Shown here: one piece after another, positions 12,156-25,919 of the stretch
Numbering within the stretch: the stretch's first letter is position 1
Layout: the number at the start of each line of letters is the position of its first letter
Source of the DNA: Sodalis endosymbiont of Henestaris halophilus
Lineage (GTDB): Bacteria > Pseudomonadota > Gammaproteobacteria > Enterobacterales > Enterobacteriaceae
Reading direction: 5' to 3'
DNA: 64,000 bases
Assembly: GCF_900161835.1 (NCBI RefSeq)
Contig: NZ_LT897836.1
Location: 248,001-312,000, forward strand
The notes under the pieces: generated by a model
What the model was told of the DNA's origin: nothing
Database searches by the model: none
The model's input: the letters and a program-made list of their open reading frames with translations, nothing else
Made by a program: the position numbers and the translations under genes

Positions 12156-13631
12156 TTACTCGAACGCATTCCACGATCGACCAGCACGGGTCATCATGGC
12201 TAGAGAAGAGGCCGGTCCCCAGGTGCCAGCCTGATAAGGTTTGAGTGCGTCATTGTCAATATTCCAGGCTTTCATAATTGAATCAACCCATCTCCAAGCT
12301 TCTTCTACTTCATCATGGCGTACAAATAGCGCTTGAATACCGCGCATGGTTTCCAAAAGCAAACGTTCATAAGCATCGACCAGATGTTCTTGATTAAAGC
12401 TTTCGATAAAGCTTAAATCTAATTTAGTAAGCTGCAGACGATGTCTATAATCTAAACCAGGAACCTTATTCAAGATCTGAATATCCACTCCTTCATCTGG
12501 CTGCAGACGGATCGTCAACTTATTATGTGGCAACTCCTTATATGAATCCCGGAATAAGTTAAGCGGCGGATTTTTAAAAGAAACGACCACTTCGGAACAT
12601 TTGGTCGGCAAACGCTTGCCGGTTCGTAGAAAAAAAGGCACACCAGCCCAGCGCCAATTGTCGATATCAACGCGGATAGAAACGAAGGTTTCAGTACGGC
12701 TATTTTTATTCGCGCCCTTTTCTTCCAAATATCCGGGAACTTTTTCCCCGCGCACGAATCCGCTGGTGTATTGTCCGCGCACAGTATTGTTACGCACATT
12801 GCTTTGATCTATAGGGCGAAGAGCGCGTAGAACCTTTACTTTTTCATCACGGATACGGTCGGTAGTCAAATCCGAAGGCGGCGACATTGCTATCATGGTA
12901 AGGATTTGCAATAGATGGCTTTGAATCATGTCACGCATTTGGCCAACCTTATCAAAATAGCCCCAACGGCCTTCGATGCCGACTTCTTCAGCAACCGTAA
13001 TCTGGACATGATCAATTGTGCGGTTATCCCAATTAGAGGCAAAAAAAGAATTAGCAAAACGCAATGCTAACAAATTTAACACGGTTTCTTTACCTAGATA
13101 ATGATCTATCCGGTAAATCTGATTTTCATTAAAATATTCTGCGACCTGAGCATTAATTGCCTGAGAAGAAGCCAGATCAGTACCCATTGGTTTTTCCATA
13201 ACCACACGACTCGGCGCGTTATTGAGTCCCGCCGCGCCGAGGCCTTTACAAATTATTCCGAAGGTGGTAGGAGGCATGGCAAAGTAATTTATCGTAACTC
13301 GAGCGTTTTGATCTATTTTTTTACTCAGCTGTTTAAAATTTTTGGTTTCGTTGACATCCAGATTACAGAAATCAAGCCGTGCACTAAAATTTTGCCATAA
13401 TTTATCGTCAATTGGTTCTTTCATGAAGGTTTCTAATGCTTCACGCACAACGTTTGTGTAAGCTTTGACGTCCCAAGCGGCACGGCCAACACCAATGATA
13501 CGGGTTTCTGGATAAAGTGCACCAACTTTTTCCAGTTGATATAACGAGGGCAACAATTTACGCCGTGCTAAATCGCCTTTTGCACCAAAAATGATAAAAT
13601 CACAGGCAGGGGCTATATATGTTAGCGCCAT
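12156..13631 (-). CDS. zwf: Glucose-6-phosphate 1-dehydrogenase
   Basis: Oxidises glucose 6-phosphate to 6-phosphogluconolactone with reduction of NADP+, the entry to the oxidative pentose phosphate pathway and a main source of NADPH. The 491 aa equal the E. coli length exactly. Visible landmarks are the nucleotide-binding GAKGDLA (16-22), EKPMG (146-150) and the active-site motif RIDHYLGKE (174-182). The end GRSWNAFE also matches. Start ATG 13631 is preceded by AGGAGA. The gene stands alone: edd/eda downstream and hexR/pykA upstream, its E. coli neighbours, are absent, so no SoxS or hexose-type control can be inferred. Retention fits a need for NADPH for biosynthesis and for the peroxide defence represented by ahpC. 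Confidence 0.98.
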   Translation of the reverse strand: MALTYIAPACDFIIFGAKGDLARRKLLPSLYQLEKVGALYPETRIIGVGRAAWDVKAYTNVVREALETFMKEPIDDKLWQNFSARLDFCNLDVNETKNFKQLSKKIDQNARVTINYFAMPPTTFGIICKGLGAAGLNNAPSRVVMEKPMGTDLASSQAINAQVAEYFNENQIYRIDHYLGKETVLNLLALRFANSFFASNWDNRTIDHVQITVAEEVGIEGRWGYFDKVGQMRDMIQSHLLQILTMIAMSPPSDLTTDRIRDEKVKVLRALRPIDQSNVRNNTVRGQYTSGFVRGEKVPGYLEEKGANKNSRTETFVSIRVDIDNWRWAGVPFFLRTGKRLPTKCSEVVVSFKNPPLNLFRDSYKELPHNKLTIRLQPDEGVDIQILNKVPGLDYRHRLQLTKLDLSFIESFNQEHLVDAYERLLLETMRGIQALFVRHDEVEEAWRWVDSIMKAWNIDNDALKPYQAGTWGPASSLAMMTRAGRSWNAFE

Positions 13632-14946
13632 GTTTTTCTCCTCGAGTAGGATTTGTAATCTTATTAAATCTTAAGGATATTTTTCTTATATCAACCAGTA
13701 AAAAGTCTACAATTACAACTTCAACCTATTTTAATTAATAAAAAAACACGACTTTATTCTAACCATATCATTAATTAAATTGTAGCTGTATTATCTCTTT
13801 GAAAAGTCATACACAACGCGCGCCATAGTTTGGCAAAAAAAAATATTTAGGACAATCCCGGTTTCGGTGCCTTTAAATATCATCCCCTACGGTTAGATAA
13901 TATGTTTCATACAACAGGTAATAATTTACTCTCGATGTGAAATCAACAAAATATATGAGTTACACTCACTACATAAAGTCGCAGAGGGGTGGTGTCTTGC
14001 CCCACCAAAAAAAAACCTAACACCATCTATGCTACAGAGCTATAATTGCTCGAACGACTGACGTTAGCAAGAATTAACCATAAACTATTTATGGAGTTTA
14101 AAACACAAAGATTAACGTGAGTTGAGATTGTATCTAGCCCAAAGTCTGGTGAATAAGATTGTCGTGTCATGTTTAAACCGTAATGTAGATAAATATAATT
14201 GCGTAAAGTAATTTACTAATAAATTTCTTATTTTCTGTGAAAATACGGCGCACGCAGGTAAAAAATAATATGGACATCGCAACAATAAATCGTACGGTGA
14301 AATAGTTTACACAGGCTAAGAATATTTTCTTATTATTAATGCGTTAATAGCATGGGGTTTATGATAGAATGTGATAAATTATCCATTTTAAATTTTTACT
14401 AATTGATTATGTAGGTATTATTATTGAGATCATGAAACGCATAGATTCTAGTGAATGAGATGTTGTAATGCTGCTTTTTCATACTTTACTATTATCAAAA
14501 TAATGATAAAACAAATAATATATAATGATAAATGTAATTACCCTCCTGGATCGCAATCTGATGCTGTAAGCAATAATTTACCCTAATGCTGCTAAACATC
14601 CTATTAGGACACTGATATATTTATGCTACGAACATGTGCTTGCGGCACTTTAAATTGTTTAATCTCTTTATAAAAAGGAATTTACGCAGACAACAGTGAG
14701 ATATAAAACTCCGTGATCACTGAACGCATTTTCATAATCGCCTAAAAATTAGGCTTTAATAAAACGGCACAAGGACTCTAAAGAAAGCACCTCTTGGGAA
14801 ACCTTTACTTACTCTATTACTCTGGCAACCTGGCAGCAGCTAAAAGACTTACATCAACGGGTACTATAAAACTTTCAAATACAGAACAAGCGTCGGGAGA
14901 CGCTAACAGAAGAAATGTTGTCTTGCAAAAACTTTATTATCATAAA

Positions 14947-14970
14947 GTTATAGCTCACCAGAGCTATAAC
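14947..14970. repeat. Perfect 10-bp hairpin, 4-nt loop
   Basis: GTTATAGCTC - ACCA - GAGCTATAAC, with no neighbouring gene or T-tract. Confidence 0.9.
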
Positions 14971-15020
14971 CAAGCAGCTGAAAAGCACTAACATACTCAC
15001 TAATTTCTAAACCCTACTAC

Positions 15021-15044
15021 TGTTCACGATAATCATCGTGAACA
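15021..15044. repeat. Perfect 10-bp hairpin, 4-nt loop
   Basis: TGTTCACGAT - AATC - ATCGTGAACA, only 50 bp from the previous hairpin and unrelated to it in sequence. Confidence 0.9.
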
Positions 15045-16289
15045 ATGACTACCTTTCATGGCACCGATTTCTATCACTTAAATTTTACACAAAAACGCAA
15101 GCGTAAAATAAAAGTATTTCTACCAATTGCAAAAGTGCACTAGATCTCAGTACCGTCTTGGCCGGTACATTATTTATCATGAATAGGTGATTTGCAAATG
15201 CCGAAAATTCATGTACATACTTTTAGGTGAAAGGACTTCTCTAAATATTTGCTATACATTTTGCTGGATGTATAAAACATTCTGTTGTAGTAAGGACGCC
15301 ATGAATAAATCGGCACGCAAAATAAACGAATTTGTCGTGATCTTAATACGAATTACTGCTCTTTAATTACCGCTATTTATATCACGGAATAGTTCATAAC
15401 AAATTTTATACTTATGTACGCCTAAGTCGTGCATGAAATTTATTTAATTCTCGAAGACAGCGAAGTAGTTATGTTTATCTTGTTAAGTGTAATTCGTCTA
15501 AATTACCACAGTACAATGTTACCTAGCCTAAACGATGTACGAAATGACCAAATCTGCTTATAAATAGAGCAGAAATAACCAAACATTCATGATGTCTAAG
15601 CGTCGACTAGATATGCGATTCAAGAATGATGAATACAATGCATGGCACTTTAAAAATAGGCGCCTAATTTGAAATGTTATTCTCATCTTATTTTTATGGA
15701 TGACTAAATCAGTAAGCATTTATTGCTGAATAAATACTGGCAATAACCCACTACTGGTCTCTTACACATTACTTTTATAATGTGTAGTTCAATCTATGGA
15801 TATAAGACATTAACTTCATGAGAAATAAAGTAAAAACCATGTTTGGCATGATAGAAAAACATTACTAAGCTTGCCATAAATTCCTGCATAAATTGCACTC
15901 AGGAGACTACAAAGCAGAGGTATACCATTTAAACCCTGCAATAGATAATGAAATCATCAAACGTCTAAAGTGATATTAATCTCGTACTTAATTAACAGCT
16001 CTCTATAATAGACAAACTTAGCTTGCAATATTATGACGCAACTCTGCATTATATTATGATGTTTACTGTAATAAGTACAACTCACGACATTGCCAAACGA
16101 CTGAGTTTAATGCTTAGCTAGTTAATATCCCCAAGGCCAGGGTATATCTGGCCATTGCTTTTATTATCACCTATATTAACTTAGCAATGAATACGTTAAA
16201 ATAATATTTTTAACTACCGTGTTACCTATTAATACAGCACAGCTACACGTATCAGACTCTGTCACTGATATCTAGGGCGGAAAGTTATA

Positions 16290-16311
16290 AGTATTATCTC
16301 ATGATAATACT
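16290..16311. repeat. Perfect 9-bp hairpin, 4-nt loop
   Basis: AGTATTATC - TCAT - GATAATACT in gene-free DNA. Confidence 0.8.
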
Positions 16312-18111
16312 GGATGTATTTAATATGGTAATAAATTTATTTACAAGTAATCAAGTAGGCTGGACAATGGTTCCCTTATAATTCGATATTAAGCATGCAA
16401 GCACTTTAGATAATCTAGGAACGACGTGGTTGACCTTTTCGTGAGAAATTACCAGGTTGAGAAAGAAGGCATATATTACTAGACATAAATACCAGTAAAT
16501 ACTTGTATAGCCGCTATTCATATTAGATCAAAGCATGAATTCGCTAGACAACTACTAAACACAGTAAACAAATAACATTTTTCACAGGCATATAAATATA
16601 AATACTTACCGAAAACAAACTAACAACTATTTCTTTACAGAAAAGGTTTATGCTATAAAAATGTTAGCTATATTATAAGATACCACAAGGTCATTAGCCC
16701 CCCCTTGCAACTGCTGATATAAGTTAGATTCAACACCAAACCAACTAAACAACTTCTCCATAAATAATTAGGTCAAGTGACTTATATTAATTGACTACCA
16801 AAACTCATTACCAAGGGTATAATTAATGTTTGCGGCATTATTACAAACACTAGCTGCATCATCATGAACACAGGATATAATGGACTGCGTCCGATATCAT
16901 GCTAGATCTGTACAGGTTTTAATGCTAAAATCAAAACAATATGCTCGAGTGACAATGCAAGCAGGTTGCCTAATGTGAATACTAATCCCATTCATATGGG
17001 TAAAAGCGCTGCCTGCAAAATATTATATAAATAGCATATTTTCGCACTATATTGAGGTCGTAGACACCCACAACCACATTACTTGCTATTATTAGCTTAG
17101 CGAGAATTATATAGTTAGTCAACAAAATTATTAGTATTTTACTAATAATCCACTTACGGCGACATCATTCGCTTGTGACGCGGCAAGTAGAGTCAACTTT
17201 CTGTCACTAGTAATGATCAAGTCTTAACGCAACAAACATTTAGTTAAATTTTATCTTTTACTCTATGCTTTTCAAGCATTCATTACTACACTTTAATAGG
17301 TATGACGGCACATGCATCAGAAGCTGATTTTATTTTATCCAATTATTGTTTTAATAATCATTACTATATTAGTTAAATTTTTTTACAAACCTAGACCAGG
17401 TTATTATCTACCACATCAATAGTATGGATATAATCCGTGCTAGTCTAGGAACTGTATGGACTTGGCATGCCCTATATTCTCTTTATTTTCGTCACATAAT
17501 TATTTATAGCCAATTAACTAGGTATATATTTCGTAACAAACATATTCAAATAGTCACCGTAGTGTTTTAACCGTCACGACACAGCAAAAAAACAGAATCA
17601 TTATAACTTATTAGTTATATCTAATATTATATACTATGCAAAGATTATTCACAATTTATACGACCATAACAGTCATTTAAGGTCATTTTAACAAGGGTGA
17701 TTTTCAAGGCAAAATAAAGAATGAAATAGACTAAAAACTTATATTTAATTTATTTATCTTTAGTAATTAACTTTTGTAAAAACCTCTTGCCAGTAATGTA
17801 CGCAAAACAGCGATTAATATCCTCAAATATTTTAGTGTTTTTCCCTCTGACTTGTTATGTATCGAATACGTTATCAACTTTTATAGGAGTAATTTCTACG
17901 TAGCTGTGGTATGATAAAGTCACTTAAGACATTTCAGACACCACTTACTTTATGATCTTAATTTCCTTTACGTATAAAGGTTTTTAACAAGATCTTTATT
18001 TAACTCTAAAGATACCTACTATAATAATTTACCGTTTTTATAAAAACTTTTATTAACTTTAATATCGGACTAACGATTACTTACCACATACATAACCATT
18101 AATATATTAAC

Positions 18112-18138
18112 ACTATTACTATTACTATTACTATTACT
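18112..18138. repeat. ACTATT microsatellite, 4.5 copies
   Basis: Four exact copies of the hexamer ACTATT plus a partial fifth. Slippage-type simple repeat in non-coding DNA. Confidence 0.95.
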
Positions 18139-18985
18139 TTACCAAAGTACACACTTATATCCACGATGCTTTTCATACTTTAATGTATTATTTATCTTAT
18201 ACAAATATAAAAACACTATTAAATTATTTATTGTTTGAAGAGATACATTAACTATATAGTTGCAATTAATCAGCTTGTTTATTCCTTATTATTACACCTT
18301 AAGTTTTCGCTAAATTAAATTAACAAATAATCATCTACAGTATGGTGCAATTTTATTGCGCACATAATAGAATATTATTCTAGTAAAAGCCAATATTTTA
18401 TTTATAAGTTAACGCTTTCCCAAACATTAACCTTTAATCATACTATTTATGGTATCAATTTTATCATTCAAAGTTAAACTAGTTAAATGAAATAAATTAC
18501 ATTACTTGTAATGATGACTATCTTTATCGGCACGTGCATCTAAAATATTTACTAACCATGAATACTATTCTTAAATAGTTAATACATTAATCTATTCTCT
18601 GCAAACGCAAAAGCATAATTTCTGTTTAAGACACATGAAATATCGTAATATTTTATTTATATATTTTATTAAGTCAATATGTTAACTAATTCATAGTTAT
18701 AATTTAAAAGATCAATAATTAATTTTAACGATATTGCTATTATTTCTTTTTTATTATGTCAATTCGTTGAGGTAATTAAAAACAGGATAAATGCTTTAAT
18801 AAGCAGGTGAAACCACCAAAAAACAAGGAATCTTTCGTTAGCCATAGATGATTTTACAGATTAGTTTGCAAAAAAAACGCGAAAATATGATATCGATCAC
18901 TTCACAAATGAGGATTATAGCCAAAGTAATTCATACACACATTAACATGAAAGCGAATAGAGGAAGAACAGCCTTCGCTAACTAA

Positions 18986-19213
18986 GTATTTGAGCACGAC
19001 ATTCACTACACCAACCCGCAGGTTACTTGTCCCAAAATTACGCTTCATGCAATTTATTTAGGAGAATATATCGATGTTTATGTTAAACTTAACGGACCTG
19101 ATGCTTCTTATGTGAACCTTTTCATCAGGAAAGTAAGCGTGCTCTATTACCAAAATGCACTTTCATTACCAAATAAGAAAGTGGTAGGCATATCTCGCGT
19201 GGAAAATATCTAA
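18986..19213 (+). pseudogene. Unidentified protein-like open run, possible gene fragment
   Basis: 75 codons without a stop, bounded by TAA on both sides and without a credible start. The translation has protein-like composition, with a segment reading AIYLGEYIDVYVKLNGPDAS. The pattern (YLG.., alternating hydrophobic residues, then a LNGPDAS turn) resembles the C-terminal TOBE/OB domain of ABC-transporter ATPases, but this is a weak resemblance from memory. It lies just upstream of mntH. It may equally be a chance open frame. Confidence 0.25.
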
Positions 19214-19800
19214 AGCGTATCAAACATTATGTTACTCGCAGAGTATAAATAATAGAGAAACATTAGTTACCACGTATGAATAATGCCATAGCATCTGTAA
19301 TCAATTGCTCATGAAGCATGAGAAAACACCACGGGGCTGCAATGCACAGCATTGCATCATGAAAATGAGTGGTTACCATCGATTATGAATGCATTCACGT
19401 AAAGTTAGAAGACGATAATCTAGAGTGTTGGCTCACACTTTCTTTTGAAAGTGCCACCGTCAAGAAGAAACCGTAATTTGTCTTAAACAGCATCAGATTA
19501 TTTTGCAGCTTTCCCGCCCAGCACACTTTATTATTTGCTGTAGTATACGCGATTTGCATCTAAATCTATTTCGGATAGGGGCGATGATAATACCCCGCAA
19601 ACACGTAATGGTTTGCAATGCCAAACTAACGGCGCATATGCTAAAGTCGTTGACGATTACAATTTAATCAACGCGCCACGCAAATTTTAATGCTTGTATA
19701 CTATACTGAATATAAGCAAGCCCTAATCAGAAACTAACAGCATTAACATTGATAATAAAGTCACTCTTTGTAACTGCTCTCGATCAATTTGGAAGAAAAG

Positions 19801-21156
19801 ATGGCAATAGTTAAAAAAAACAGTCTAGAAGAAATTAACAATACAATTCCTGTCCCAAAGGGGAAAGGCGGATTTTTTAGAAAACTGTTTGCTTTTTCGG
19901 GACCAGGAGCATTGGTAGCGGTAGGCTATATGGATCCAGGCAACTGGATTACCTCTATCCAAGGTGGTGCGCTATATAGTTATCTTCTGCTATCAGTAAT
20001 ACTGATTTCTAGTCTTATTGCGATGCTGCTACAAGTCATGTGTGCAAAATTAGGCATTGTAACAGGAATGGATTTAGCACAAGCAACGAAAGCTCTAGTC
20101 GGAAAACGTACCACAGCGGCGCTTTGGATCACAACCGAATTAGCAATTATTGCTACGGAAATCGCCGAAGTCATCGGTAGCGCTATCGCGCTAAATTTAC
20201 TTTTCAAGATTCCGATGCTGCTCAGCGTAATTATTACAGTGCTAGACGTCTTTCTTCTTTTAACCTTAATGAAGTTCGGTATTAGAAAGATCGAAGCATT
20301 GGTCTTTACGTTAATTACCACTATTTTTATTATTTTTGCCTATGAAGTGGCTCTTGCTAATCCTGATTTAACACAAATTGCCCGTGCTTTCATTCCTCAA
20401 AGAGATATTATTACCGCGTATGTGGCGGGGGGGGATTCCGCTTTCTTTATTGCTTTAGGCATTGTGGGAGCCACAGTTATGCCACACAACCTGTACTTAC
20501 ATTCTTCTATTGTGCAATCACGTCAATATGACCGTAGCAATGAACAGGCATTGAAAGAAGCCATCCACTACGCGACTATTGATTCTAATATTCAGTTAGG
20601 ATTTTCCTTTATTATAAACTGCTTACTTCTAATATTAGGCGCCGCACTATTTTTTGGTAAAAATCCGGATGATATTGGTCGTTTTGCTCAACTGTACGAC
20701 GCCCTGCAGGATCATAACATAGTCGGCGCTATCGCTAGCACCACTCTGGCAACATTATTCGCTGTTGCTTTGTTAGCTTCCGGTCAGAATGCGACTATTA
20801 CGGGTACCTTAACCGGACAAATCGTGATGGAGGGTTTCATTAATTTCCGGCTACCACTATGGCAACGTCGTTTAATTACACGCATAATTGCTATTATGCC
20901 AGTTGTGATCTGCATCTATTGGTGGGGAGACACAGGAGATGTGGTGGAAAAACTCTTGGTCTACACACAGGTGTTTTTGAGCATTGCCTTACCCATTTCA
21001 ATGATTCCCCTGCTATATTTAACTTCATCTCAAAAACGCATGGGAAAATTTGTCAATTGCAAATCCTTTATTGTCCTTGGATGGTTAGCTACCGCCGTAT
21101 TGGTGGCCTTAAACCTCCAACTCATCATCGAAACAGTGCAAATGCTGTGCGATTGA
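19801..21156 (+). CDS. mntH: MntH, NRAMP-family Mn2+/H+ symporter (unusual subtype)
   Basis: Inner-membrane importer of Mn2+ (and Fe2+) driven by protons. 451 aa with about 11 hydrophobic segments. The metal site motifs are present: DPGNW at 45-49 in the first helix and MPHN at 227-230 in the sixth. A TTG opens the frame at 19789, but ATG 19801 is preferred because GGAAGA at 19791-19796 then sits at Shine-Dalgarno distance. The protein departs from E. coli MntH: it has DPGNWITS for the E. coli DPGNFATN, a longer N-terminus and an internal VTGMDLAQATKA..TELAIIATEIAEVIGSAIAL segment. This style is one I associate with lactic-acid-bacterial MntH, which suggests horizontal acquisition by an ancestor. 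It occupies a slot (pykA-lpxM) that holds no mntH in E. coli. No MntR or Fur box was recognised upstream. Confidence 0.9.
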   Translation: MAIVKKNSLEEINNTIPVPKGKGGFFRKLFAFSGPGALVAVGYMDPGNWITSIQGGALYSYLLLSVILISSLIAMLLQVMCAKLGIVTGMDLAQATKALVGKRTTAALWITTELAIIATEIAEVIGSAIALNLLFKIPMLLSVIITVLDVFLLLTLMKFGIRKIEALVFTLITTIFIIFAYEVALANPDLTQIARAFIPQRDIITAYVAGGDSAFFIALGIVGATVMPHNLYLHSSIVQSRQYDRSNEQALKEAIHYATIDSNIQLGFSFIINCLLLILGAALFFGKNPDDIGRFAQLYDALQDHNIVGAIASTTLATLFAVALLASGQNATITGTLTGQIVMEGFINFRLPLWQRRLITRIIAIMPVVICIYWWGDTGDVVEKLLVYTQVFLSIALPISMIPLLYLTSSQKRMGKFVNCKSFIVLGWLATAVLVALNLQLIIETVQMLCD

Positions 21157-22005
21157 AAAACATTACTGATCTGAGAAGCGTTGCTCAACAAAGGAATAAT
21201 GTTAGACTTTAAATTTGATGAAATAAGAATGTTGCTAATCTGAATTAAACCACGCAGCTGATCTTTTAAATAGAGGACACATGATGCATACACGCTCGTT
21301 CCACGGAAAACAAGTAAACTTAACAAGCAGGTAAATTAGAAAAAGTTAGAGGATCCCTGGTGTTGGGAAATTGTGAGAAAGTTTAACAGTCAAAGATATT
21401 TTTAAGAATTCGGATCCGCATTAATATTCATGCGCTACGCTATAGCACAAGCTGAACCGACGTCTTATAACGCTTTGTATTAGAAGAAATTAAAGTTGTA
21501 AATAAAAAAGTAACGATCGCTAAGTATCCCTTTCATCAGGCGGTCTATCGACGGCAACTTCACTGTGTGTGTATGTAGCAAAATACAAATTTACTGTGGT
21601 CCGTGTCCAGTTCTGGTTCTGATCCGGTAAATAATATCCCCCAACGCCCTGAAGCATCGATCTAATACAAAGTGGGTTAGATGCTGTGTAGTTACTAACT
21701 TGCATACGCTACCCGCCCTAAAACTTTCTAATATTGAATTACGAAGCCCGAGTACATAACACAACAAACCGGAGGCATAACCATAGCTTTTATATCTTAT
21801 AAAAGCAGAAACACCCGTTATAACATGATGCATAACCGTGTGTTTTTAAAACAAGTTAGTATATGAACTTTGTCTATCTACTTTGCTTATTTTATGTATA
21901 ACTTTATCAATATTTTTTATAGCACAGTTACTTTTGCTAACCTACTTATCATTATAAAAAACAAGGCAACCACAATACACAAGATTGACTATTGATAGCG
22001 TATTG
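21157..22005. other. Spacer between mntH and mepM, mostly the grave of lpxM
   Basis: About 850 bp. The part at about 21505-21700 holds the lpxM fossil described separately. The rest has no open frame with family resemblance. A small 8-bp hairpin lies at about 21785-21805. Confidence 0.6.
21505..21705 (-). pseudogene. lpxM: lpxM remnant (lipid A myristoyltransferase)
   Basis: LpxM adds the last acyl chain to lipid A. By synteny (mepM - lpxM on one strand) it should lie exactly here. One frame reads QGVGGYYLPDQNQNW, then LYFATYTHS, which fits the LpxM core (..GYLPDQDHGPE.., ..DFFATYKATLP..). The next block, VKLPSIDRLMK (LpxM ..TLPAIGRLMK..), appears in the adjacent frame, so a frameshift separates them. 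Everything N- and C-terminal is unrecognisable. Loss implies an under-acylated lipid A unless another copy exists elsewhere. The LpxL paralogue shares some of this pattern; synteny favours LpxM. Confidence 0.8.
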
Positions 22006-23331
22006 TTAGTGTAAATGCAGCTGTGGCAACATCTGTTTAACTTTAGCAAGATATTTAGTGCGGTCGTTGCCAGTCAGCCCTTCGGTACGCGGCAGTTTAG
22101 CAGTCAGAGGATTAACTGCCTGCTGGTTGATCCAGACTTCATAATGCAAATGGGGACCGGTAGAACGTCCAGTATTGCCGGACAAAGCGATTTTATCGCC
22201 ACGTTTTACTTTCTGGCCTTGTGTAACTAATAATTTTTTTAGATGCATGTAACGGGTCATATACTGACGGCTATGGCGAATAGCCACATAGTTGCCGGCG
22301 GCACCGTCTCTTTTGCTAACAATCACCTCACCGTCGCCTACAGCCAGCACTGGCGTACCAACCGGCATAGCAAAATCTACCCCACGATGTGGCGCGATAC
22401 GACCGGTAACGGGGTTGCAACGGCGAAGATTAAAATTGGAGGAAACACGGAATTGTTTTATCGTAGGGAAACGCATAAAGCCACGGGCTACCCCGGCTGC
22501 ATCGCGGTTATAAAATTTACTGTCATCCGCACGAAAAGCATAATAATCTTTCCCTCCGGTGCGTAAGCGTACGCCGAGCAATTGACTTTGAATGCTTTGG
22601 CCATTTAGAACTTCTCTTGAAGTCAAAACAGAAAACTGATCTCCAGTACGCAACTTACGAAAATCTAGTTGCCATTGCAGCGCTTTAATTACAGAGTTGA
22701 TATCACAGTCCGTCAGGCCAGCTATACGAGCACTAGTAACGAAACTACCGTTGAGTTTACCGGTCAAAGTTGTATTGCGCCACTCGCCTGTTATATTAGC
22801 GATGCTTTCCTTAAAACTACCATTAACGCGCTCATAGGTGCGGGTCTCAGAGCGGGATATATTCCAAGTTAAGCACTGCAAATAGCCCTCGGCGGTCAGC
22901 GTCCAAGAGAGAGACTGACTTATTTTTAGATTACGTAACGCAGGATGTTGCCGAGCTAGCGCAGTAACGTCGGCGATATCGATGCCGTACTGGGTGAGGA
23001 CGCTGCTGAGCGTATCTCCGGTAGATATGATATATTCATGCACTCCCGCTTCCCCTGCCATACGTTCGTCAAGTTCATCTTTTGGAATATCTTCATCGTT
23101 ATCAGGGATAGTCTGATCCAGAAGTTCGCTGGCTTCAGGCTCTAACACCGGCAAAGAGTGTTTTTCCAAAAGAAAGATGCCGGTGGCAGGCCGTTCTACC
23201 GCTGGCGAATAAATATAAGGTCGTAAAACAGTGATAGCTAAAGTGAATATAGTTAGCGATCCCAGCATAACGCGATGAATTCGCGGCAGATAATTAAACG
23301 CTAAGGCGAAAGAGCGAGCTACCTGCTGCAC
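22006..23331 (-). CDS. mepM: MepM, murein DD-endopeptidase (M23/LytM)
   Basis: Periplasmic Zn endopeptidase that cleaves D-Ala-mDAP crosslinks to let new peptidoglycan be inserted. 441 aa (E. coli 440). The N-terminal inner-membrane anchor is about residues 22-40. A LysM/OapA-type region follows, including EYIISTGDTLSSVLTQYGI (99-117). The C-terminal LytM domain carries the Zn set H315 and D319 (HRGVD) and H394/H396 (HLHYE), with a further H at 363. All catalytic residues are intact. In E. coli lpxM lies directly downstream (here a fossil) and znuA directly upstream, with 12 bp to the znuA stop here. Kept while lpxM was lost, consistent with an essential role in wall growth once redundant MepS/MepH are gone (inference). 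Confidence 0.96.
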   Translation of the reverse strand: MQQVARSFALAFNYLPRIHRVMLGSLTIFTLAITVLRPYIYSPAVERPATGIFLLEKHSLPVLEPEASELLDQTIPDNDEDIPKDELDERMAGEAGVHEYIISTGDTLSSVLTQYGIDIADVTALARQHPALRNLKISQSLSWTLTAEGYLQCLTWNISRSETRTYERVNGSFKESIANITGEWRNTTLTGKLNGSFVTSARIAGLTDCDINSVIKALQWQLDFRKLRTGDQFSVLTSREVLNGQSIQSQLLGVRLRTGGKDYYAFRADDSKFYNRDAAGVARGFMRFPTIKQFRVSSNFNLRRCNPVTGRIAPHRGVDFAMPVGTPVLAVGDGEVIVSKRDGAAGNYVAIRHSRQYMTRYMHLKKLLVTQGQKVKRGDKIALSGNTGRSTGPHLHYEVWINQQAVNPLTAKLPRTEGLTGNDRTKYLAKVKQMLPQLHLH

Positions 23332-23343
23332 TAATAACTATCC

Positions 23344-24300
23344 TCATGTGTTCTTCTCCAGGCAGCTCATGTACTGATTAGACAATTGCGATAGAAAGCG
23401 CGTGTAGCTTTCCTTGTCTAATACAATACCTCTTCCTAATGGATCTAGAGTGCCAATATGCACAGTTGTCCCGCGTGCCACGGCGTTGATAACGGATGGC
23501 CTGAATTGTGGCTCAGCGAAAATACAGGTTGCTTGTTGCTCAACTAACTGTGTTCTAATTTTGTGTAAAGCCTGAGCGCCAGGTTGTATTTCGGGATTGA
23601 TGGTAAAATACCCTAACGGCGTTAGGCCATAGTATGCTTCAAAATATCCATACGCATCGTGAAATACGTAATATTTTTTAGTACGAAAAGGAGCTAACAT
23701 TTTAGCAATATTTTTGTCATTTTTTGTCAAGAACGTGTTGAAAATTTGCAAATTATCATCTAAACGTTGCTTTTTTTCCGGCACTAACGCTACGAGACGG
23801 TCATGAATAGCATCGGCAGCACATCGCGCAATAGCTGGAGAAAGCCACAAATGCATATTATATTCGCCATGATAGCGGTTGCTATCATATTTATGATTTT
23901 TATGTAGCGCTTTTCCACCTTTTTGCAATAATGGTGTAACAGTAGGAAGACTAGCCAAAGTAATGCGCCGTTCGGCAGGCAAAGAAGACGCAGAACTAGA
24001 CAAAAATGCCTCCATTTCTGGTCCTACCCACACTAGCACATCGGCTTTTTTTAACCGCATCACATCTGTAGGCCACAAAGCATAATCATGAGGTGACGCG
24101 CCGTCGGGTAATACTACCTCTACGGGCATAACGCCATCGGCTACGGCAGCAGCAATAAATCCCAGGGGACGAAGTGAAGCGACAACAGCGGCATGCGCAT
24201 CTACTATGCTCACCATCATCACAGACACGACTACTAGGCAGAAAAAACAAATGGTACTAAAAATGGCTCTTAGCAAGCTAGTAGGACTGAATACGGGCAT
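23344..24300 (-). CDS. znuA: ZnuA, periplasmic zinc-binding protein
   Basis: Captures Zn2+ in the periplasm and delivers it to ZnuBC. The frame can be read from 24375, but that would run through the operator, so ATG 24300 is chosen (318 aa). It gives a signal peptide: a hydrophobic core at about 15-31, then cleavage after AHA (about 37). Zn ligands by family position are H71 (GASPHDY), H150 (NMHLWLS) and H214 (FHDAYGYF); D286 (LDPLG) and the C259/C313 disulfide pair are also visible. The long His/Asp-rich loop of E. coli ZnuA just before NMHLWLS is reduced to a short stretch with four histidines (about 133-144), and the glutamate next to H71 is replaced by proline. Divergent from znuCB across a Zur site. 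Confidence 0.95.
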
Positions 24301-24330
24301 GGCAATATTTTCATCGTCAACAACGTGGTT

Positions 24331-24348
24331 TGTTATGATATAATAACA
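24331..24348. promoter_or_regulatory. Zur operator between znuA and znuCB
   Basis: TGTTATGATATAATAACA: 6-bp perfect outer arms (TGTTAT/ATAACA) with an AT centre, matching the core of the enterobacterial Zur box as known from E. coli znu. It lies in the 73-bp divergent gap, exactly where zinc-bound Zur represses both transcripts. Its survival amid decaying spacers implies that zinc regulation is still under selection. Confidence 0.7.
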
Positions 24349-24373
24349 TAGCAATTTACAAACCGTAATCATC

Positions 24374-25099
24374 ATGACTCATTTGGTAATCTTGGAACAC
24401 ATTAGCGTCGCTTTTGGTAGCAACGCGGTGCTGCATAATATATCTTTAACCCTTCGCCCTGGTCACATTCTTACTTTGCTGGGTCCAAACGGCGCCGGCA
24501 AGTCGACACTGGTACGGGTAGTTCTCGGTCTTATCACCCCTACTGACGGTACGCTAAGGCGACAACCTAAACTACGCATGGGATATGTGCCGCAAAAAAT
24601 TCACCTAGATCCAACGTTACCGCTTACAGTGGAGCGATTCATGCGATTGCGACCGGGAGTAAATAAAAACGATATAGTGCCGTCGCTAGCACAAGTGCAA
24701 GCGCAACATTTGCAAACGGTGCCCATGCAGAAACTTTCTGGTGGTGAAATGCAGCGGGTGCTGTTGGCGCGCGCCCTGATCAATTCACCTAGGCTTCTTG
24801 TACTAGACGAACCGACTCAGGGGTTAGATGTAAATGGCCAGGTGGCTCTATATGATTTAATCGATAATATTCGCCGAACTATCAGTTGCGGGGTGTTAAT
24901 GGTCTCACACGATTTACATCTAGTAATGGCAAAAACAGATGAAGTTCTATGCCTTAATCACCATATATGCTGTTCTGGCACACCAGAAATGGTCTCGACT
25001 CATCCTGATTTTATTGCCATGTTCGGGCTGCTAAGATCTGCATCGCTCGCGATTTATCGTCACAACCATAACCATCGTCACGATCTTCAGGACGGGTAG
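24374..25099 (+). CDS. znuC: ZnuC, zinc ABC transporter ATPase
   Basis: Cytoplasmic ATP-hydrolysing subunit that powers ZnuB. 241 aa (E. coli 251; the shortfall is in the C-terminal tail). Walker [10 protein letters not shown] at 37-45, Q-loop Q74 (YVPQK), signature LSGGE at 121-125, Walker B LLVLDE at 141-146 and H-loop H179 (VSHD) are all intact. The tail keeps the His-rich segment [10 protein letters not shown], thought to sense or handle zinc. Starts at ATG 24374, 34 bp before znuB on the same transcript and divergent from znuA. Confidence 0.97.
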
Positions 25100-25133
25100 T
25101 GCTGACTACCGCCTACACCAGGAGCATGTCGCC

Positions 25134-25919
25134 ATGATTGAATTATTGTTACCTAGCTGGTTTGCTGGCGTGCTGTTATCGCTAGCGGCTGGCCCGCTAG
25201 GTTCCTTCATGATCTGGCGTAAAATGTCTTATTTTGGCGATACCCTCGCCCATGCTTCGCTTCTGGGCGTAACTTGTGGTCTTTTGTTGGATATCAATCC
25301 CTTTTACGCAGTGATTGCAGTTACATTAGCGCTAGCACTCGGACTAGTATGGCTAGAAAGCTTTTCTCAATTAACTATCGACACGTTGTTGGGCATTATT
25401 GCGCACGGATCACTCTCTTTAGGACTGGTGGTAATTAGTCTAATGCACGGGGTGCGAGTCAATATGATGGCGTATCTTTTTGGCGATCTGCTAGCAGTCA
25501 CGCCACAGGATGTTGCGCTGGTAGGTGGAGGAGTCGTGATAGTTCTGACCATCATTTTATCGCAATGGCGACAGTTACTATCTGTGACTATCAGTCCCGA
25601 GTTAGCCCACGTAGACGGGATCTGTTTACCACGCATTAAGTTGCTTCTAATGCTGGTCACGGCACTAACAATCGGGTTTGCAATGAGATTTGTCGGTGCG
25701 TTAATAATAACCTCGTTACTTATTATTCCAGCTGCAGCCGTACGTCATTATGCGCGTAGCCCAGAGCAAATGGCGGTATACGCCCCTTTAACCAGCGTGC
25801 TAGCGGTTACTGGTGGGCTGGCGTTTTCCGCGTTCTACGATACACCGGCCGGGCCATCCGTGGTACTATGCGCGTCTGTACTGTTCCTAATTAGCCTAAC
25901 CATTAAACCACGAGCTTAA
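25134..25919 (+). CDS. znuB: ZnuB, zinc ABC transporter permease
   Basis: Inner-membrane channel subunit of the high-affinity Zn2+ importer, probably working as a dimer with two ZnuC. 261 aa, the same as E. coli. Seven to eight hydrophobic segments alternate with short polar loops; the N-terminus [14 protein letters not shown], the [20 protein letters not shown] block and the permease loop region ending in LRFVGAL-like [15 protein letters not shown] are typical of the ABC-3 family. GGAG at 25121-25124 precedes ATG 25134. In E. coli ruvBA converges on znuB; here that space is empty. Confidence 0.96.

Follow-up and report, generated by a model that had tools for sequence, protein, structure and literature searches.

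The 64,000-nucleotide stretch of the genome of the Sodalis endosymbiont of Henestaris halophilus that was analyzed here, referred to as the window, contains a gene for an MntH-type transporter that an earlier note had described as non-enterobacterial in style. The locus raises the question of where this gene came from, how it reached its present position, and what became of the native one. The genome consists of one contig of 1,622,395 bases, in which a profile search revealed a single Nramp. The explanation that we consider very probable is that this gene, a member of the MntH C-beta (MCb) subgroup, is derived from Gram-positive bacteria, was inserted once in a common ancestor, and was kept as the sole Nramp and probable Mn2+ importer while the native system decayed.

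The window gene and its subgroup

The gene and the sites associated with it are the following.

19729–19747, + strand: decayed Fur-box position, 10/19 in this register versus 13–15/19 in five larger-genome relatives
19791–19795, + strand: GGAAG, ribosome-binding-like, 5 nt upstream of the ATG, read directly
19801–21156, + strand: MCb Nramp gene, 451 aa, assigned by profile matches, tree and AU test
20158–20160, + strand: GAA codon of Glu120, in TM3 at the position of DraNramp D131

The MCb gene is an intact open reading frame that starts with an ATG at 19801 and whose stop codon ends at 21156, exactly where the earlier note had placed it; a second in-frame start candidate, TTG, lies 12 nt upstream of the ATG. 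The protein matches the Pfam Nramp profile PF01566 (2e-107) and the NCBIfam MntH model for Mn uptake (4e-160), and belongs to the Nramp/SLC11 family (PF01566) by its profile and by the metal-site motifs DPGN in TM1 and MPH in TM6. The metal ligands D45, N48 and M227 are intact, and H229 is also present. TM1 reads DPGNWITS (D45–N48) versus DPGNFATN in E. coli MntH, TM6 reads MPHN versus MPHV, and the N-terminus is 11 residues longer (D45 versus D34). The long N-terminus and the motifs DPGNWITS and VTGMDLAQAT, on which the earlier note had based its description, are thus all found in the protein. The protein is a predicted proton-linked Mn2+ importer, with transport, metal preference and proton coupling all deduced from its sequence. 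By homology, Mn2+ would be bound by D45, N48 and M227, and import would be driven by protons via a charge network of TM1, TM3, TM6 and TM9, with Glu in place of the usual TM3 Asp.

The window protein is an MCb and not an enterobacterial MntH A, to which it is about 34% identical. It falls in a clade of 57 rows (100/100) with Firmicute, bifidobacterial and proteobacterial members, apart from MntH A and from the MCa rows, which were labelled from identity (about 42–51%) and not from a curated model; one row labelled MCa (G601) groups with MntH A. The charges of the MCb 'eukaryotic signature' are present, the TM9 Arg as R361 and the TM4 Asp in ITVLDV. By eye, the latter also occurs in ScaDMT, and E. 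coli has Ala there. The TM9 arginine is found in 127/127 rows at least 40% identical to the protein, and 39 of the 40 rows below 40% have a gap at that column. The resemblance to lactic-acid-bacterial transporters seen by the earlier note is borne out, as MCb is a subgroup typical of lactic-acid bacteria. A search of solved chains gave 7phq/5m94 as the closest (E ~1e-144), followed by 5m87/6tl2 (E ~1e-135), with MntH A structures matching far worse.

Of the 60 genomes searched (own included), 30 have an Nramp, and the MCb type was found only in the window genome and two others, one intact at 92% identity and one with stops at 86%; the remaining Nramps are 29–37% identical, bar short fragments in one genome. 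A family sample of 392 genomes gave an Nramp in 277 and the MCb type in 23 (own included), and no full-length match listed fell between 65% and 38% identity. Since matches above 51% came only from the window's own genome in the class (369) and phylum (398) samples, the MCb type looks rare across Proteobacteria. Among the best 80 of 499 named relatives, the closest are Sodalis-allied symbionts (84–90%), followed at about 69–77% by Gilliamella, Snodgrassella, Orbus, Wigglesworthia, Morganella, Vibrio sinus and bee/nectar Acinetobacter; the Pedicinus symbiont stands at 66%, and Listeria, Gemella, enterococci, bifidobacteria and other lactic-acid bacteria and Firmicutes at 59–69%. The proteobacterial genera that carry MCb are insect-associated, with Vibrio, Orbus and Morganella as exceptions or mixed cases.

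The upstream region and the metal carried

The 150 nt upstream of MCb genes were scored against the Fur consensus, with 1000 mononucleotide shuffles per gene. The five larger Sodalis-group genomes score 13–15 of 19 positions, with at most 13/1000 shuffles as good. Scores of 13–18 were obtained for fifteen other proteobacterial MCb genes, fourteen of them with at most 4/1000 shuffles as good (51 for A. apis). Ten Gram-positive genes (nine from Firmicutes and one from Bifidobacterium, some with approximate starts) score 10–12, each with at least 255/1000 as good. Eleven of the thirteen reduced symbionts scored are at chance, the window included (11; 669/1000); Psp keeps a Fur-box-like site (15; 0/1000), and Doolittlea is borderline (13; 41/1000). 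The native MntH A gene of an S. praecaptivus-like genome also has such a site (15). Because 135 of 2812 tiled 150-nt stretches from 15 loci, sites included, reach 13 (41 reach 14 and 21 reach 15), a score of 13 carries little weight by itself, and the sites of the S. praecaptivus-like genome and G094 draw their support from lying at a common position.

Such sites in front of the gene in relatives hint at iron-linked control; judging from sequence, MCb seems to have been placed under Fur regulation in Proteobacteria and then to have escaped it in most reduced symbionts. The sole FUR-family match in the window genome is a remnant with 3 stops in 74 positions, and mntR, matched in three larger relatives among the eight genomes searched, gave no match in the window genome. 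With both Fur and its box gone, expression of the window gene is probably constitutive. The znuACB reading frames (23344–25919; L236) are intact, and the genome yielded no ABC-3 permease other than ZnuB; as the only FUR-family match is a remnant, zinc uptake is probably without Zur control too. The search of Rfam at the gathering score gave no match in window positions 13600–24400; promoter-like sites numbered 4 versus 5.2 in shuffles, and terminator-like sites 3 versus 1.7, neither of which is telling.

Iron (or zinc), and not manganese, as the main substrate of the retained protein would fit the iron-linked control suggested for its relatives and the fact that Nramps transport Fe2+ as well. 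This reading, which disputes the substrate and not the origin of the gene, appears unlikely to us: zinc is served by the adjoining znuACB, the ligands D45, N48 and M227 are intact, the matching NCBIfam model is one of Mn uptake, and MCb-subgroup relatives act in Mn acquisition according to passages of Cellier 2022 (PMC9606685).

Phylogenetic position, insertion slot and fate of the native copy

A tree of 79 proteins was built with IQ-TREE under a site-mixture model and rooted on MntH A. Doolittlea (TM1 DSGN) is omitted, the nine dropped rows are mostly near kin of retained rows, and the broken MCb copies (G026, G143, G094) were excluded. The 27 proteobacterial MCb rows form a single clade (100/100) within Firmicute MCb, and the window gene is nested there through this clade. 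The nearest branch is Listeria (99/92), a placement that depends on the 26 Firmicute rows sampled. The horizontal acquisition proposed in the earlier note is thus supported, with the refinement that the nearest Gram-positive branch sampled is Listeria and not a lactic-acid bacterium. Sodalis, Baumannia-like, Wigglesworthia and Pedicinus symbiont proteins form a clade (100/99) to which Gilliamella/Snodgrassella is the next branch (85/91, not starred); Wigglesworthia lies outside the Sodalis and Baumannia-like group (100/93), and the branching order of bee/nectar Acinetobacter is weakly supported (86/44). Forcing the window protein with MntH A costs 192 log-likelihood units and is rejected (p-AU 8.2e-6). 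It is not a member of MntH A, and the placement within ordinary enterobacterial MntH that the earlier note had weighed against its own proposal did not occur. A single clade of the Sodalis group and Morganella is not rejected (p 0.207), so MCb may have entered Enterobacterales once or more than once. The program flagged long branches, several of which meet, and the MntH A row G025 is among them. According to the tree, an MCb ancestor would have passed from Gram-positive bacteria to Proteobacteria.

The earlier note had assigned the gene to a pykA-lpxM slot. The two genes are indeed adjacent in E. coli, with a gap of only 130 bp, but neither is intact in the window, where remnants occur in the expected order.

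12156–13631, − strand: zwf, left flank of the ancestral slot
14255–14485, + strand: yebK (hexR) remnant, E 3e-8
15183–15476, + strand: weak pykA remnants, E 0.017 and 0.023, in the expected order
18884–19237, + strand: AmiA-like amidase gene remnant, 42.9% over residues 139–256, E 2e-19
21544–21732, − strand: lpxM remnant, E 1e-4
22006–23331, − strand: mepM, right flank of the slot
23344–25919: znuA (−), znuC (+) and znuB (+), zinc importer, right flank of the slot

Of the 19 distinct Sodalis, Baumannia-like, Wigglesworthia and Pedicinus loci, 18 retain one or more neighbours of the slot zwf-pykA-[gene]-lpxM-mepM-znu, which points to one insertion; at the exception, the locus of the Heteropsylla symbiont, no queried neighbour was found. 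The S. praecaptivus-like genome, for instance, has the order zwf-yebK-pykA-MCb-lpxM-mepM-znu; three Baumannia-like genomes have zwf-pykA-MCb-ruvBAC, Wigglesworthia has MCb-mepM-znu, and the Pedicinus symbiont has zwf-pykA-MCb-mepM. Among the larger-genome relatives, where the earlier note had suggested looking, lpxM adjoins MCb in 5/5 and pykA lies on the opposite side in 4/5; the 19 kb taken from the fifth (G026) gave no pykA. At the loci tested in Gilliamella, Snodgrassella, Orbus, Vibrio, Acinetobacter and Morganella, no slot gene was found in the flanking sequence retrieved, some of which was short, with znuC matches below 40% identity not shown. Beside MCb, the five larger genomes have two further ORFs, one for an AmiA-like amidase and a second that lacks a Pfam match. 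The second ORF encodes 453 aa at L115:12364–13725 in the S. praecaptivus-like genome and has, by eye, a stretch like the nucleotide loop of kinases; its homologues occupy the MCb slot of four relatives and are partial or broken in three. With lpxM only a remnant in the window, lipid A probably lacks its last acyl chain.

Independent late transfers into the individual symbionts, such as between bacteria that live in one insect, are an improbable alternative to one insertion. MCb is mobile and sits elsewhere in the genome in Morganella, Gilliamella, Snodgrassella and Acinetobacter, and the branch order within proteobacterial MCb is partly weak; the common slot in 18/19 loci and the 100/99 clade nonetheless speak for one event. 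Recombination between symbionts via the flanking genes could mimic a shared slot, but the position of Wigglesworthia outside the Sodalis and Baumannia-like group (100/93) argues against it. The preferred reading, from tree and synteny, is a single insertion between pykA and lpxM in an ancestor from which Sodalis, Baumannia, Wigglesworthia and the Pedicinus louse symbiont all descend. As a rare genomic marker, the slot bears on whether Sodalis, Baumannia and Wigglesworthia have a single ancestor, which trees of AT-biased sequences can hardly settle.

Candidate vehicles were sought and rejected. Relatives turn up on 465 plasmid records, with one exception below 60% identity, and on 13 phage records, two of them at 60–80% (best 61%); there is no close match to the window gene among them. 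In the 25 largest ORF clusters of 41 loci, apart from the Nramp itself and frames that overlap it, only general families (ABC ATPases, a sensor kinase) link different recipient groups.

The 5.2-Mb S. praecaptivus-like genome (main contig 4.71 Mb) contains both MCb (92% identical to the window protein) and MntH A (35%), both intact. Judging from relatives with both genes, the common ancestor would also have had a native MntH A beside nupC. The shared slot and the two intact types of the 5.2-Mb relative fit an acquisition before symbiosis, as the earlier note had thought plausible. In the window genome, a weak mntH A-like match beside nupC (blastn E 4e-5, tblastn E 0.014) looks like a relic of the native gene. 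Retention was surveyed with the Nramp profile in 18 Sodalis-group genomes, preselected for carrying MCb, and in the window's own. In the five of at least 3.1 Mb, MntH A is intact in four and MCb in two, and an S. glossinidius-like genome has both broken. All 14 genomes of about 1.6 Mb or less have an intact MCb, and none has an MntH A match. Stops or frameshifts break MCb in 3/5 larger-genome relatives (L169, L170, L116), so some associations do without the gene. In the 392-genome sample, many small genomes lack any Nramp match, and in other small ones MntH A is the only type. In four Morganella genomes of 3.8–4.5 Mb, MCb is the only Nramp above the cut-off, which shows that the MCb-only state is not peculiar to reduced symbionts.

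The MCb proteins of the window and the S. praecaptivus-like genome share 92.2% identity, versus 76–87% for zwf, mepM, znuA, znuB and znuC. The NG86 estimates are dN 0.043 and dS 1.43, a ratio near 0.03 that is only indicative because dS is saturated. These comparisons support purifying selection on MCb in the window lineage. An ordinary, vertically inherited enterobacterial MntH made odd-looking by the fast, AT-biased evolution common in reduced genomes is scarcely credible, for all that the Pfam and NCBIfam families are identical, given a 5.2-Mb relative with both genes (92% and 35%), the AU test (p 8.2e-6), the native relic beside nupC and an MCb more conserved than its neighbours. Under the borrowed origin, the native copy and Fur would have decayed and MntR been lost in the window lineage while the borrowed copy was retained; MCb is now the only Nramp found, and so probably the cell's Mn2+ importer. 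The locus thus represents a synteny-placed case of a symbiont lineage in which a borrowed transporter survived and the native one was lost.

The TM3 glutamate and relation to known systems

The equivalence of Glu120 to DraNramp D131 was set by hand from the alignment, with the TM1 Asp of DraNramp taken as D56. Glu occupies this position in 37 of the 167 distinct Nramps examined, all of them proteobacterial MCb, and Asp in the other 130, among which are the five MCb proteins of Acinetobacter. The proton-path residues E113, E123, H229, R356 and R357 are present in the window protein. According to passages of PMC6398981, neutralization of D131 abolished proton uniport in DraNramp, D131 mutants are cited as retaining significant metal transport, and the Asp is given as 93% conserved, so other exceptions exist. 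Because the charge is kept, the effect of the Asp-to-Glu change may be mild. 'D131E' was not found in the literature among the matches listed, which does not prove its absence, and the passages of PMC12873925 and PMC13060092 on Nramp proton coupling make no mention of a Glu change in proteobacterial MCb. In Doolittlea endobia (L034:6001–7353), DSGN replaces DPGN in TM1, the only change of this proline in 80 rows. The Pedicinus symbiont protein (L071:5995–7335) is very divergent (branch 0.87–0.94), and its TM9 reads KRKMITR versus QRRLITR in the window protein, so its proton network is partly altered.

A more speculative proposal, which we hold to be doubtful, is that MCb was remodelled for symbiosis by the gain of Fur control and by a single Asp-to-Glu change after the branch of bee/nectar Acinetobacter, with Glu retuning or loosening proton coupling. 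Such remodelling would suit metal import to the pH and membrane potential of the insect gut or bacteriocyte, and would account for the survival of the borrowed and not the native copy in 14/14 small MCb-bearing Sodalis-group genomes. The natural Asp-to-Glu change is a ready-made experiment on the coupling of metal and protons in Nramps.

The horizontal transfer itself is already published. Passages of Cellier 2022 (PMC9606685) report MCb alongside MntH A in S. praecaptivus, MCb alone in some Sodalis-allied symbionts, Baumannia and Wigglesworthia, and MCb also in Gilliamella, Acinetobacter, Morganella and bifidobacteria; they describe the signature as Asp in TM4 and Arg in TM9, and propose that MCb spread within habitats like the insect gut. 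A 2023 'Slc11 synapomorphy' paper repeats, in the part available, the link to pollinating insects (PMC10606218). Among the matches listed for the main text of Cellier 2022, there is no TM3 Glu or Fur-box-like site, and the shared slot, native relic, Fur-box history and TM3 Glu were not found in the portions available of a mostly non-subscription literature, supplements aside. The shared insertion site, the regulator site and the proton-path change seem to be new detail.

The window gene resembles the MCb subgroup as outlined in the passages of PMC9606685 in its tree position, its TM9 arginine and its occurrence in a group found in lactic-acid bacteria, bifidobacteria and insect symbionts; it differs in that Glu120 replaces the TM3 Asp and that the proteobacterial members have Fur-box-like sites upstream. 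ScaDMT of Staphylococcus capitis (PDB 5m94, 7phq) has ligand residues identical to those of the window protein, but an Asp at the position of Glu120. E. coli MntH A shares the Nramp family and the metal ligands, and differs in its identity of only about 34%, its locus ypeC-mntH-nupC and its separate clade.
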